Positions 16,807 through 59,672 of a stretch of DNA of 64,000 bases are shown piece after piece (the stretch's first letter is position 1; the number at the start of each line of letters is the position of its first letter). The notes below the pieces were generated by a model that saw only the letters and a program-made list of their open reading frames with translations, did no database searches and was not told the origin of the DNA. A program made the position numbers and the translations under genes. The stretch comes from an uncultured Thermotogae bacterium (GTDB taxonomy: Bacteria; Thermotogota; Thermotogae; Mesoaciditogales; Mesoaciditogaceae): contig CAJXLN010000005.1 of NCBI GenBank assembly GCA_913056255.1, forward strand, positions 1 through 64,000. The letters are read 5' to 3'.

Positions 16807-17992
16807 AATTTCGAATCTCAGGATTCTTACTCCTGCCGGAGGAGCTCCAAGCATTGATGGAAAGACTTTAGAACTTGAAGGAAGTATTACCATCAAAGAT
16901 GGACGTATTGTTTCCGTAGGTAAATCTCATGGAGCGCTTAGAACCTGGGATGGAAAAGGTATGTTAGCCATTCCAGGATTTGTAGATCCGCACACCCATA
17001 TACCATTCTATGGAGAGCGTTCCGAAGAATTCGCTTTACGTGCTGCTGGAAAAAGTTATGTGGAAATCCTGAAATCTGGCGGTGGAATATATTCCACTGT
17101 CAAAAAGGTGAGAGGAGTTTCGATCGATGCTCTTGTGATAGAGAACACAAAGTATCTGGAGTGGATGTTGAAATCTGGAGTTACTTCTTTGGAATGCAAA
17201 AGTGGATATGGTCTTGATTTTAAAAATGAATTGAAACAGTTGAGAGCTATCAAAAAATTATCGGAAAAGGTACCCCAAACTTTAATTTCAACGTTTTTAG
17301 GCGCACATGCGGTACCTCCAAAGGGGGAAAAGGCTTACTTCACAGAACTCATCGATATGATGAAAGTCATAAAATCGGAATCACTTGCCGAATTCGTGGA
17401 TGTTTTCTGCGATGAAGGTGCTTTTTCCGTTGAAAGTTCTTTCGAACTGTTGAAACTTGCTAAGAATATGGGATTCAAGATCAGAGCACACGCTGAAGAG
17501 CTGTCTTCTAATGGCTTTGCTTCTAAGGCGGCAGAGTTAGGGGCGGTGAGTGTGGATCACATAATAAAAATAAAGGATGAGGAAATTTCCACACTTAAAA
17601 AGTACGGTACCATAGCTCTTCTCATGCCAACAACCAGCTTCTATTTGAAAACCGCGTACGCTCCCGCTCGAAAACTCATAGACAACGGTGTGCCAGTGGC
17701 TCTTGGATCGGACTTCAATCCGGGTTCCAATACTTTTTATTCCCCACTGTTCGTGTCTCATCTTGCCGTTAATCATCTCGGAATGACACCAACTGAAGCT
17801 CTTACAGCTCAAACTTTGAACGCTGCATGTGTTCTTGGAATTGAAAATGAAGTTGGTACGATCGAAACGGGGAAAAACGCAGACATCGTGATCTTGGACG
17901 CACCCAGATTGGAATACATATCTTACATGCCAACGAATGAGATCGTTAAAGCCGTTTTCAAAAATGGGAAGTTGGTGACAGCTAATGAATAG
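16775..17992 (+). CDS. hutI: Imidazolonepropionase, start codon non-standard
   Basis: Opens the imidazolone ring to give formiminoglutamate. Metal-binding motifs of the amidohydrolase fold are present: DPHTHIPF, KSGYGL, GAHAVPP, AHAEE and the aspartate in GSDFNPGS. The first ATG (16961) would begin in the middle of the fold (MLAIPGFVDPHTH) and lose the N-terminal beta-domain, yet the upstream frame clearly encodes it (DLEISNLRILTPAG, ITIKDGRIVSVGK). That frame is open back to 16769 but contains no ATG, GTG or TTG. ATA 16775, four bases after GGTGATC, or ATT 16808, just after the ftcD stop, are the candidates; I give 16775. The last codons (A-N-E-stop) lie inside a repeated element. Confidence 0.85.
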   Translation: MDSSTKLADLEISNLRILTPAGGAPSIDGKTLELEGSITIKDGRIVSVGKSHGALRTWDGKGMLAIPGFVDPHTHIPFYGERSEEFALRAAGKSYVEILKSGGGIYSTVKKVRGVSIDALVIENTKYLEWMLKSGVTSLECKSGYGLDFKNELKQLRAIKKLSEKVPQTLISTFLGAHAVPPKGEKAYFTELIDMMKVIKSESLAEFVDVFCDEGAFSVESSFELLKLAKNMGFKIRAHAEELSSNGFASKAAELGAVSVDHIIKIKDEEISTLKKYGTIALLMPTTSFYLKTAYAPARKLIDNGVPVALGSDFNPGSNTFYSPLFVSHLAVNHLGMTPTEALTAQTLNAACVLGIENEVGTIETGKNADIVILDAPRLEYISYMPTNEIVKAVFKNGKLVTANE

Positions 17993-18163
17993 TTACCAAG
18001 AACTATCAAAAATAACCAAAAAAGATTTGACTTTTGTTGGATAATGTGTTTTAACATTTTTTGAAGGTTTGGGTTGTAAAATTGAAATTGTAAAAAACGG
18101 AATGTTTAAAAGGTAGAAGAAAGGCTACCTTCGAGATTCACCGTTTTTGGTGGATTTTGTAAA
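17979..18163 (+). repeat. Structured intergenic element, copy A (hutI/rlmH)
   Basis: This copy aligns along nearly its whole length with copy B at 40948-41086 on the other strand. Similarity begins inside the last codons of hutI (CAGCTAATGAATAG against CAGTTAACGAATAG) and runs to TTTGTAAA, 12 bases before the TTG-AAA start of rlmH. It includes a fully identical core of about 24 bases centred on the hairpin GGTAG-AAGAAAGG-CTACC (18112-18129), then a second hairpin ATTCACC-GTTTTT-GGTGGAT (18137-18155). Copy A carries about 45 extra bases (about 18036-18080). Both copies have the same sense relative to their flanking genes. Confidence 0.75.
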
Positions 18164-18175
18164 TTAGGGAGGTTT

Positions 18176-18631
18176 TTGAAAACTGAAATAGTATATCCAG
18201 GTAAGATAAAAAATTCCTTTGCCAAAGAAGGATTTGAAGAGTACGTAAAACGTCTCAAACGATTTTTCAAGTTGAACATCACGAGTATTCAATCATGCCG
18301 ATCGAGCGATCGAAGGAAATGTGTTGAAGAGGAATCAAAAAAACTGTTAAAATACATTGGAAGTAGAGAGTTCATCTTGTTGGATGTTGATGGTGAATTG
18401 TTGAACACTAAGGAATTCTCTCAACTCATTAATGGATACATGACTGGCGCACGAGATTTAACATTTGTGGTAGGTGGGGTTTACGGTGTATCGGACGAGT
18501 TAAGGGAGCGTTCGAGCTTATCTCTTTCGTTGTCGCGTATAACTTTTACTCACTCCATGACTTTGATGATACTCACCGAGCAATTGTATCGTGTCGCAAA
18601 AATTCTTTCAGGCCAACCCTATGATCACTGA
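18176..18631 (+). CDS. rlmH: 23S rRNA (pseudouridine-1915-N3) methyltransferase RlmH
   Basis: SPOUT-class methyltransferase acting on the 70S ribosome at position 1915 of 23S rRNA. 151 residues, near the usual length. The knot region FVVGGVYGVSDELRER binds S-adenosylmethionine, and the C-terminus HSMTLMILTEQLYRVAKILSGQPYDH is the family end with the catalytic tyrosine/histidine. TTG start after GGGAGG. It lies directly downstream of repeat copy A. Confidence 0.94.
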   Translation: MKTEIVYPGKIKNSFAKEGFEEYVKRLKRFFKLNITSIQSCRSSDRRKCVEEESKKLLKYIGSREFILLDVDGELLNTKEFSQLINGYMTGARDLTFVVGGVYGVSDELRERSSLSLSLSRITFTHSMTLMILTEQLYRVAKILSGQPYDH

Positions 18632-40190: not shown

Positions 40191-40934
40191 TTACACCTCC
40201 GGGATTACACTGACCGTTACTGTATTGTGCCCATATTGGGAAGCCGCCACTGGATTCATCCATCCAAGCGAAACACGATGACCAAAATTAGAAACAAGCA
40301 TGGTCGTTAAAATATTGGCCAGTCGGCTTCTTCCACTGTGTCTTACCACGATCATGAAGTGCTTTTTGGGATTTATCTCCTTCACCATCTCTGAAATTGC
40401 CCCTTTGACACTCCAACTACTTTTCACTTGAACAACGCCGTAATTGAATTTCACAAGATTCACCGATTTTGTTATCACATTTTTAAATCTTTCCTCCGGT
40501 ATCACATCATTTTTTTTCAGAACAGACACATCCGGGAATAAAAGATAAGTTTTGCTGTTTTGTGCGAATTCGTGAAGTTCTTCTAATGATCTTTCGCTCT
40601 TAAGGAAGAATGAGAGAGAGACACTATCCATCTTCGCTTCTCTCAATTTAATTCCTTCAACGATCGAGGAAACGAACATAACGGTGCGTTTCAAAAAAAT
40701 CGTCGGCCATAATGGCAACACCACGTCCACCGTTCCATATTCCGCAACTGCTTTTGTCAACACATCTCTTACTTCTTCGTAATAAGGAAGTTCGACGTAG
40801 GTGCGTTTGTTAGAGAGAAAATAGGACTCCCTCTTTATGGAGGAAACTCGAATTCTCCTTCTCTTCCATTCAACGTATAAAGGCAACTTTTCGACTTCAT
40901 CGATATCCACTGAATCATCAGTGATTATTTTCAA
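40191..40934 (-). CDS. Divergent DegV-like protein in the fatty-acid operon
   Basis: 247 residues with no strong domain match by eye. The start MKIITDDSVDIDEV resembles the ILVDSTSDI opening of DegV proteins, the spacing of predicted strands is similar, and the end (MLVSNFGHRVSLGWMNPVAAS) could correspond to the DegV C-terminal domain. The usual serine/threonine lipid-binding residues are not preserved, so ligand binding would differ. Placement between fabF and fabZ suggests a role in handling fatty acids. TTG start directly after repeat copy B. Functional assignment is tentative. Confidence 0.45.
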   Translation of the reverse strand: MKIITDDSVDIDEVEKLPLYVEWKRRRIRVSSIKRESYFLSNKRTYVELPYYEEVRDVLTKAVAEYGTVDVVLPLWPTIFLKRTVMFVSSIVEGIKLREAKMDSVSLSFFLKSERSLEELHEFAQNSKTYLLFPDVSVLKKNDVIPEERFKNVITKSVNLVKFNYGVVQVKSSWSVKGAISEMVKEINPKKHFMIVVRHSGRSRLANILTTMLVSNFGHRVSLGWMNPVAASQYGHNTVTVSVIPEV

Positions 40935-40947
40935 CCCTTAAACCCGT

Positions 40948-41086
40948 TTTACAAAACCCACCAAAATGGTGAATTTTGAAGGTAGCCTTTCTTCTACCTT
41001 TTAATGTTCCGTTTTCTACCACTTCAATTTCAAAAGACAAATCTTTTTTGGCATTCCTGATAGTTTTGGTAGCTATTCGTTAACTG
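40948..41086 (-). repeat. Structured intergenic element, copy B (fabF/degV-like)
   Basis: Minus-strand partner of the element at 17979-18163. Reading on the minus strand it starts in the last codons of fabF (V-N-E-stop), carries the identical core AAAAGGTAGAAGAAAGGCTA (about 40980-41003) and the hairpin ATTCACC-ATTTT-GGTGGGT (about 40957-40974), and ends 13 bases before the TTG-AAA start of the next gene. Loop lengths and one stem base change between copies while pairing is kept (GGAT in A, GGGT in B, through A-T to G-T). It lies within a transcribed operon. Confidence 0.75.
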
Positions 41087-42323
41087 CTATCGGCTTCCCG
41101 GCGATTATAGAAGCGTTGTGACCACCAAATCCAAAGGAATTGGATAAGAAATTCCTTATTTCGACCTTTAAAGGTTTGTTGGGAACGCAATTCAGATCTA
41201 TCTCCGGATCGTAATTATCAAGGTTAACCGTTGGTGGCACGATGGATTCATTCACGCTGAGTACAGATGCTATGAACTCTACAGCTCCAGCTGCACCAAG
41301 AAGATGCCCTATTTGGGATTTGTTGGAGTTGATAACGAGCTCTTTTGCCCTCTCACCAAAAGTCTTCTTGATCGCACGTATTTCCGCTAAATCTCCAACT
41401 GGTGTGGAAGTTCCGTGCGTGTTTATGTAATCCACATCGTTGACCGATAATTCAGAAGACTCCAATGCCAACTTCATAGAGTTTGCCGCACCTTTTCCCT
41501 CAGGATCCGGTTGAACCATGTGAAATGCATCCGCACTCATTCCGTATCCCTTGACTTCCGCATATATTTTAGCTCCACGCTTCAGCGCAGACTCGAGAGA
41601 TTCAAAAACAAGAACGCCAGAACCTTCACCCATCACAAAACCATCACGGTCTTTGTCGAACGGACGAGAAGCCCTTTCGGGAACATCATTTCGTGCTGAG
41701 AGTGCTTTCATGTTTCCAAATGCGGCAACAGCTATAGGAGAAATAGGCGCCTCGGCACCGCCGGTAATCATCACATCCACTCCCTCGTACTTTATCAAAT
41801 TACAAGCCATTATCATAGCGTGTGTACTTGAGGCACATGCACTCACCGTTCCAAAATTCGGTCCCTTTGCACCATGTAAAGTGGCTATTGTTCCTGAGAG
41901 TGTATCTGCTATCATCATGGGGACGAGAAACGGGCTTACCCTTGAAGGCCCTTTGGAGTTCAAGACTCCTATTTCTCTTTCAAGTGATATTATTCCACCG
42001 ACTCCTGATGCAACAATTACACCAGCCTTTTCGAGAAGTTCTTCGGTGAGCCCAGAATCCTCAATTGCCTCATTTGCGGCGGCCACACCTAATTGTGTGT
42101 ATCGATCGTAGCGCCGCGCGCTTTTAAGGCTCATGTATTTAGAGGGATCAAAATCCCTTATCTCCGCTGCTATTTGAGTTCTGTACTCTTGGGGATCGAA
42201 AGATGTTATACGTGACACGAAACTTTTGGATGAAAGCAATCCATTCCAAAAATTCTCTTTCCCGCTCCCACTCGGAGCAACAACTCCCATTCCAGTTACC
42301 ACAACTCTTCTGTCACTTTTCAA
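41073..42323 (-). CDS. fabF: Beta-ketoacyl-ACP synthase II
   Basis: Elongating condensing enzyme, 416 residues. Cys-His-His active site: Cys in SACASSTHA, His in NTHGTSTPVGD, His in SQIGHLLGAAG, with the C-terminal GFGGHNASI. TTG start preceded by AAAGGGTG. It heads the operon fabF, degV-like, fabZ, fabH, fabK, fabD, acpP; fabG, which is also needed, is not present. The last residues lie inside repeat copy B. Confidence 0.96.
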   Translation of the reverse strand: MKSDRRVVVTGMGVVAPSGSGKENFWNGLLSSKSFVSRITSFDPQEYRTQIAAEIRDFDPSKYMSLKSARRYDRYTQLGVAAANEAIEDSGLTEELLEKAGVIVASGVGGIISLEREIGVLNSKGPSRVSPFLVPMMIADTLSGTIATLHGAKGPNFGTVSACASSTHAMIMACNLIKYEGVDVMITGGAEAPISPIAVAAFGNMKALSARNDVPERASRPFDKDRDGFVMGEGSGVLVFESLESALKRGAKIYAEVKGYGMSADAFHMVQPDPEGKGAANSMKLALESSELSVNDVDYINTHGTSTPVGDLAEIRAIKKTFGERAKELVINSNKSQIGHLLGAAGAVEFIASVLSVNESIVPPTVNLDNYDPEIDLNCVPNKPLKVEIRNFLSNSFGFGGHNASIIAGKPIAVNE

Positions 42324-59590: not shown

Positions 59591-59646
59591 TCGAAACGAT
59601 AACGCTACATATAGTATGATAATGAAATGTTATACTATATGTAGCG
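59591..59646 (+). promoter_or_regulatory. nrdJ promoter with NrdR-like palindromic operator
   Basis: CGCTACATATAGTAT (59603-59617) and ATACTATATGTAGCG (59632-59646) are perfect 15-base inverted arms 14 bases apart. Each half, TACATATAGTA and its complement, is itself nearly palindromic and resembles NrdR boxes (consensus built on ACTATAT). A -10 box TATGAT (59615-59620) with TCGAAA (59591-59596, 18-base spacer) lies across the first arm, so binding would block transcription. Centre-to-centre distance is 27 bases, shorter than the usual 31-32 of NrdR pairs, hence some doubt. The ATG of nrdJ is at 59673 behind AAGGAGG. Confidence 0.6.
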
Positions 59647-59672
59647 CTATGGCTTAAGGAGGTATTTTATAG

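Follow-up and report, generated by a model that had tools for sequence, protein, structure and literature searches.

Probable miniature relatives of phage-borne IsrB elements inserted into Shine–Dalgarno sequences of a Thermotogota bacterium

The short repeats described here are probably miniature, non-autonomous elements of the IS200/IS605 superfamily that are related to phage-borne IsrB (ISC-type, OMEGA) and were inserted into Shine–Dalgarno sequences (SDs). They are multicopy, relatives lack them, their junctions lie in SDs and their ends are shared with isrB elements of phages. The single parts (IsrB/ISC elements, MITEs) are known, but in the openly licensed literature neither their combination with SD insertion nor any SD-targeted or SD-centred element insertion was found described. 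In gene-dense genomes insertions often break genes or control sites. An element that inserts at ribosome-binding sites, with the genes on either side still usable, has an unusual lifestyle. It alters the C-termini of proteins and uncouples overlapping genes of operons. Additionally, a Thermotogota repeat is hereby tied to the IsrB of phages, which is related to the ancestor of Cas9, and its sites are ready-made tests of target choice by such elements.

Two copies in the window

The window is the whole analysed stretch of 64,000 nucleotides. It contains two copies, A and B, with the following features:

16961..17992, + strand: hutI-type amidohydrolase gene, upstream of copy A (Pfam Amidohydro_1, 98.6 bits)
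17966..17971, + strand: left target remnant GGGAAG of copy A, SD-derived; GGGAGG in relatives; the empty sites of genomes G001 and G002 read AAAAATGGGAGGAAGGTTTTTG
17972..18165, + strand: copy A of the miniature element, in the gap between the hutI-type gene and rlmH; aligned with copy B and nine more copies
17972..18031, + strand: left end (LE) of copy A, containing the hutI stop codon TAG (17990-17992)
18112..18129, + strand: right-end hairpin 1 of copy A, GGTAG-AAGAAAGG-CTACC
18132..18159, + strand: right-end hairpin 2 of copy A, 12-bp stem with T-rich loop
18160..18168, + strand: right-end tip TAAATT of copy A plus AGG (junction on the SD side), followed by the rlmH start codon TTG at 18176
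18176..18631, + strand: rlmH, downstream of copy A (Pfam SPOUT_MTase, 141.6 bits)
40191..40934, - strand: degV-like gene, downstream of copy B; name taken from the original prediction, without Pfam match
40946..41093, - strand: copy B of the miniature element, in the gap between fabF and the degV-like gene; source of the fabF stop codon TAG
40981..40998, - strand: hairpin 1 of copy B
41073..42323, - strand: fabF, upstream of copy B (Pfam ketoacyl-synt, 184 bits)
41094..41099, - strand: left target remnant GGGAAG of copy B; GGGAGG in relatives; empty sites GGGAGGTTTGATAATTG (G002) and GGGAGGTTTGAGAGTTG (G001)

The original prediction had declared the two gaps (17979-18175 on the + strand, 40935-41086 on the - strand) homologous, and this holds at these positions: the copies align with 78% identity, and their best aligned piece, 100 nt long, reaches 84% (E = 6e-25, from a search of a small set). 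The predicted core of 24 bases with the GGTAG/CTACC hairpin is indeed identical in both copies, both run in the same direction with respect to transcription, and the single extra block in copy A, predicted with about 45 bases, measures about 42 nt. The homology had been said to start at the last three codons of the upstream gene; it actually begins directly after GGGAAG (17966-17971; 41099-41094), about seven codons ahead of the stop of the upstream gene, since this stop is itself part of the element's left end. The final codons of the hutI-type gene are element-derived and its C-terminus is unlike that of its relatives (...KLVTANE-stop in the host versus ...RKVFEN-stop); for fabF the corresponding ends are ...GKPIAVNE-stop and ...GRFDN-stop. 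Elsewhere in the window (59594-59655) an inverted repeat of 24 nt, 88% complementary and with a 14-nt loop, is located between two genes.

Copy number and distribution

Only two copies had been described, but the host genome (G000; assembly of 1.63 Mb in 54 contigs, 89% complete) has 11. Gene content and gene order point to a Thermotogota as host. The copies were found with the 24-nt core and with a covariance model of the right end, and they lie at varied gene junctions. The two-hairpin model returns the same 11 host loci and no others at E up to 1. Outside the host a clear homolog was detected in one genome only (G019) among the other 102 of the class's 103 genomes searched, and the element is absent from two genomes of the same genus. 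Weak matches within the class (L047-L049) are terminators or coding sequence, and two matches in the collection (L030, L032) miss the TTTTGTAAA tail and are regarded as chance.

All 11 host copies are in sense orientation and show TTTTGTAAA, with a start codon on the same strand 8-15 nt further on; by our estimate well under 1% of random positions lie this near to such a start. Among all copies with this right end (18 in total: the 11 of the host, L012, L033, L034, L161, L162, L169 and L181) each one has a same-strand start codon about 8-25 nt downstream, and TTTTGTAAA is invariant in the 16 copies aligned. The downstream genes of the host are rlmH, the degV-like gene, birA, rpe, trkA and the beta-glucosidase gene (bgl), together with those of a 2Fe-2S protein, a TPR protein, V-ATPase subunit B (atpB), an asparaginase-type and a ferritin-like protein. 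As was predicted from the first two, they are unrelated, and the 11 have no pathway in common.

Two arrangements can be mentioned here. The birA and rpe genes are convergent (G000:C17:14536-16059) and each has its own copy before the start codon (L003, L004). Copies L007 (end of contig G000:C50) and L011 (start of G000:C23) are different but are preceded by an identical stretch of 54 nt, apparently the end of a gene (...ELPDGELICLDEDFEEPRE/V), and it was probably at this repeat that the assembly broke.

Empty orthologous sites and insertion into Shine–Dalgarno sequences

Alignment of orthologous loci in close relatives, suggested earlier as a possible refutation, reveals that the element is absent and that an SD is found at the insertion point. 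Orthologous junctions without element occur in G001, G002, G004, G005 and G013, those for copy A being the ones in G001 and G002. At 12 of 13 junctions compared the empty ortholog has a purine-rich SD at the position of the element's right end, and where synteny is kept the upstream gene overlaps or adjoins this SD. In most cases the spacing between AGG and the start codon differs from that of the empty ortholog by no more than about 1 nt. Four junctions read as follows:

rlmH: empty AAAAATGGGAGGAAGGTTTTTG; host AAAAATGGGAAG-element-AGGGAGGTTTTTG
fabF/degV: empty GCTGGGAGGTTTGATAATTG; host GCCGGGAAG-element-GGGTTTAAGGGTTG
trkA: empty GGATGAAGGAGGTTCTTATG; host GGATGATG-element-AGGCTCTTATG
atpB: empty GTAAAGGAGGCGTAATGC; host GTAAAAGAGG-element-AGGTGTAATAC

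A similar right junction is present at the birA, rpe, asparaginase, bgl, fes, TPR and ferritin-like genes and at the G019 gene, with a few spacing differences of 1 nt and with some AGGs decayed. At some of them (e.g., the TPR gene) the upstream context varies among genomes, and therefore the right junction alone is informative. Among the relatives an overlap of the upstream gene with the SD is frequent; the host gene instead terminates at the stop codon in the left end of the element. Phage copies occupy comparable sites: at the kind of place taken by L033, a plain SD-like AAGGAA is found in the related phage L157, and L169 is flanked by AAGGAGG on the left and by AGGATCGAGATG on the right, again an SD.

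The empty sites reveal an insertion with no or very short duplication, leaving a left-hand GGRG and a right-hand AGG; this AGG may be a short duplication or may belong to the element, and both fit. According to a crude gene call, SDs make up 24% of the GGAGG and 42% of the RGGAGG sites in the window. The restriction to SDs could partly be due to the loss of insertions within genes, and a GGAGG target of 5-6 nt combined with such loss could mimic genuine SD recognition.

As the repeat is multicopy, absent in relatives and replaced there by an SD, it is to be regarded as a mobile element inserted into SDs. The original prediction had listed a mobile MITE/BOX-like element that gives a stop codon and a new C-terminus among its readings, and this one is sustained by the empty orthologous sites and the isrB-bearing phage relatives, although the SD as insertion point and the affiliation with IsrB/IS605 had been missed. 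Its other two readings, a shared RNA regulator and a processing site, find no support: the downstream genes have no common pathway and relatives lack the element at these sites.

A mobile cassette could also provide a promoter or regulatory signal and be retained because it drives the downstream gene, comparable with putative mobile promoters or the promoter-stem-loop cassettes of T4-type phages. The invariable location upstream of genes would fit, as would a TTGACT-N17-TGTAAT-like sequence seen by eye in several full-length copies. A promoter scan, however, performed no better than on shuffled sequences, the copies L004, L008, L010 and L034 occupy the same type of site without this region, and both the exact SD junction and isrB are left unexplained, which makes such a cassette quite improbable.

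Relationship to phage-borne isrB

The phage contig IMGVR_UViG_3300033148_007689 (IMG/VR) carries three right ends, one of which (L161) directly closes an intact isrB ORF of 317 aa (NCBIfam guided_IscB 184.3 bits, cutoff 175; Pfam RRXRR 158.8 bits). This ORF is without the HNH insert seen in L168 and is therefore IsrB-like. The miniature copies share both terminal sequences with this IsrB-encoding element. At the right end the covariance model matches L161 with E 1.8e-11 and L181 with E 3.4e-11; the left end of L161 aligns in register with copy A (L001; score 48, maximum of 1000 shuffles 39.5) and with L033 (score 47, maximum of 1000 shuffles 38). This left-end similarity is clear for L001, L002 and L033 and weak for L009; that to L167 is weak as well. 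Moreover, GGAGGTGCTTAAATG of the element resembles GGAGTGCTTAAATG, the stretch with SD and start codon before isrB of L161; in known IsrB systems the SD of isrB is located within the last omegaRNA hairpin (PMC9581776). On a second phage contig most of isrB has been deleted internally with both ends kept (L181), apparently an intermediate. Finally, the interior of the phage copy L169 matches that of the host copy L011, a similarity that suggests exchange between phage and bacterium.

The ends are asymmetric with a subterminal hairpin on the right, and terminal inverted repeats were not seen by eye. None of the 11 host copies contains a nuclease ORF. Miniature interiors show no similarity to the omegaRNA region of L161, L167 or L181, and the omegaRNA core is unrecognisable in the copies. 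Peptides from the L169 and L007 interiors have no Pfam or NCBIfam match, that of L169 also no phage or plasmid match. The host genome also contains a decayed fragment from the N-terminal part of a gene of the IscB family (RRXRR; L165, G000:C8:9610-9744). A complete Y1 (HUH) TnpA is missing from the host assembly (89% complete), which has one partial Y1_Tnp without shown link to the element.

An origin from TnpB was considered and rejected: L162 follows a TnpB fragment, but the right end is missing at 79 other TnpB loci, and an apparently intact TnpB gene of the host (L163, G000:C4:68668) has ends unlike those of the element by eye. A second repeat (GGAATTTTTTCCGAAGCCTTATCAAGACCGAATCGCTC...) is common to the region upstream of copy L006 and the flank of the partial Y1 transposase gene (L130, G000:C3:62316).

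Variable left parts next to a conserved right end are also what insertion by a reverse transcriptase would leave, with 5'-truncated copies, a conserved 3' hairpin and a target duplication of 3 nt. But copies with complete left ends and shared ends exist, RVT_1 is absent from the host genome and the phage relatives encode IsrB rather than a reverse transcriptase, so that a retroelement-like origin is extremely improbable. Group I or II introns were rejected likewise (no Rfam match in the copies scanned, no RVT_1 in the host genome).

Structure of the right end

In 14 sequences about 97.5% of the cells in hairpins 1 and 2 are paired, compared with 35-49% in slid controls, and three pairs are changed on both sides. 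The stem of hairpin 1 is GGATG/CGTCC in L161 and GGATG/CATCC in L162, and the consensus right end folds with -20.1 kcal/mol (z = -3.7). Judged from the alignment, the two-hairpin right end is kept via compensatory changes; they had been predicted for the second hairpin and are found in both. About 6 nt separate hairpin 2 from the junction. The mini-ORF MFDHLTGRRKATFKIHHF is rejected as a real peptide, with start codons lost and frames shifted in several copies, and is explained as the start region of isrB fused to its end.

A structured RNA directly before genes might be a leader or riboswitch-like element acting in cis across a regulon, with downstream genes controlled by binding of a ligand, a protein or the ribosome. 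Such a function is in line with copies that are always sense and immediately 5' of a start codon, with G-U pairs in the sense-strand structure and with a loop AGAAAGG that could pair with the 3' end of 16S rRNA. It is nevertheless improbable: the downstream genes share no pathway, congeners have the same genes without the element and phage copies are attached to isrB. An Rfam scan of the element copies gave no match, in agreement with the original failure to recognise a riboswitch, and for lack of a curated-family match a known riboswitch or known cis-regulatory RNA was rejected.

Proposed mechanism and meaning

For the IsrB-related mobile element the following course can be proposed. The miniature form retains the two-hairpin right end, the left end and, probably as a relic, the segment of isrB with ribosome-binding site and start codon. 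It is inserted in a single orientation into a GGAGG-like SD, so that GGRG precedes the element and AGG follows it. Owing to stop codons in the left end, an upstream gene overlapping the SD is cut off cleanly, while the right-end AGG would keep the downstream gene translatable. As no full TnpA was found and the omegaRNA core is unrecognisable, the mobilising machinery is inferred: a Y1 (HUH) TnpA presumably acts in trans on single-stranded DNA with a GGAG-like target, which may also be the basis of the SD specificity. The copies would persist through tolerance, their insertion being harmless.

A wider and more tentative idea, to which we give somewhat less than an even chance, is that an entire family of IsrB elements, from autonomous phage elements to miniature bacterial copies, uses the SD as integration address, i.e. 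as TnpA target and/or as target-adjacent motif of IsrB. If this were true, the family would have a built-in safe harbour before most genes, its left end would have evolved to provide the stop codon and its right end to provide the SD, and each copy would have the terminal part of the upstream gene as its junction guide.

Comparison with known systems

Like BOX, RUP and ERIC-type repeats the copies are small, interspersed and located between genes; to our knowledge, however, those repeats are not SD-specific. With IsrB/IscB (ISC, OMEGA) elements the copies share the same right end, a similar left end and the same segment of SD and start codon, and in the phage contigs isrB is situated between these ends. 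They differ in that the host copies have neither a nuclease gene nor a recognisable omegaRNA core, and no TnpA was seen. HEARO RNA (Rfam RF02033) is the 5' omegaRNA of IscB-type elements (PMC9755519), but neither the miniature copies scanned nor L161 give a HEARO match. With MITEs and palindrome-associated elements derived from IS200/IS605 the copies have in common that they are short, non-coding and multicopy, with asymmetric ends and a hairpin near the right end. In contrast to those, the target here is the Shine–Dalgarno sequence, and for this reason all copies lie in sense orientation between a stop and a start codon.
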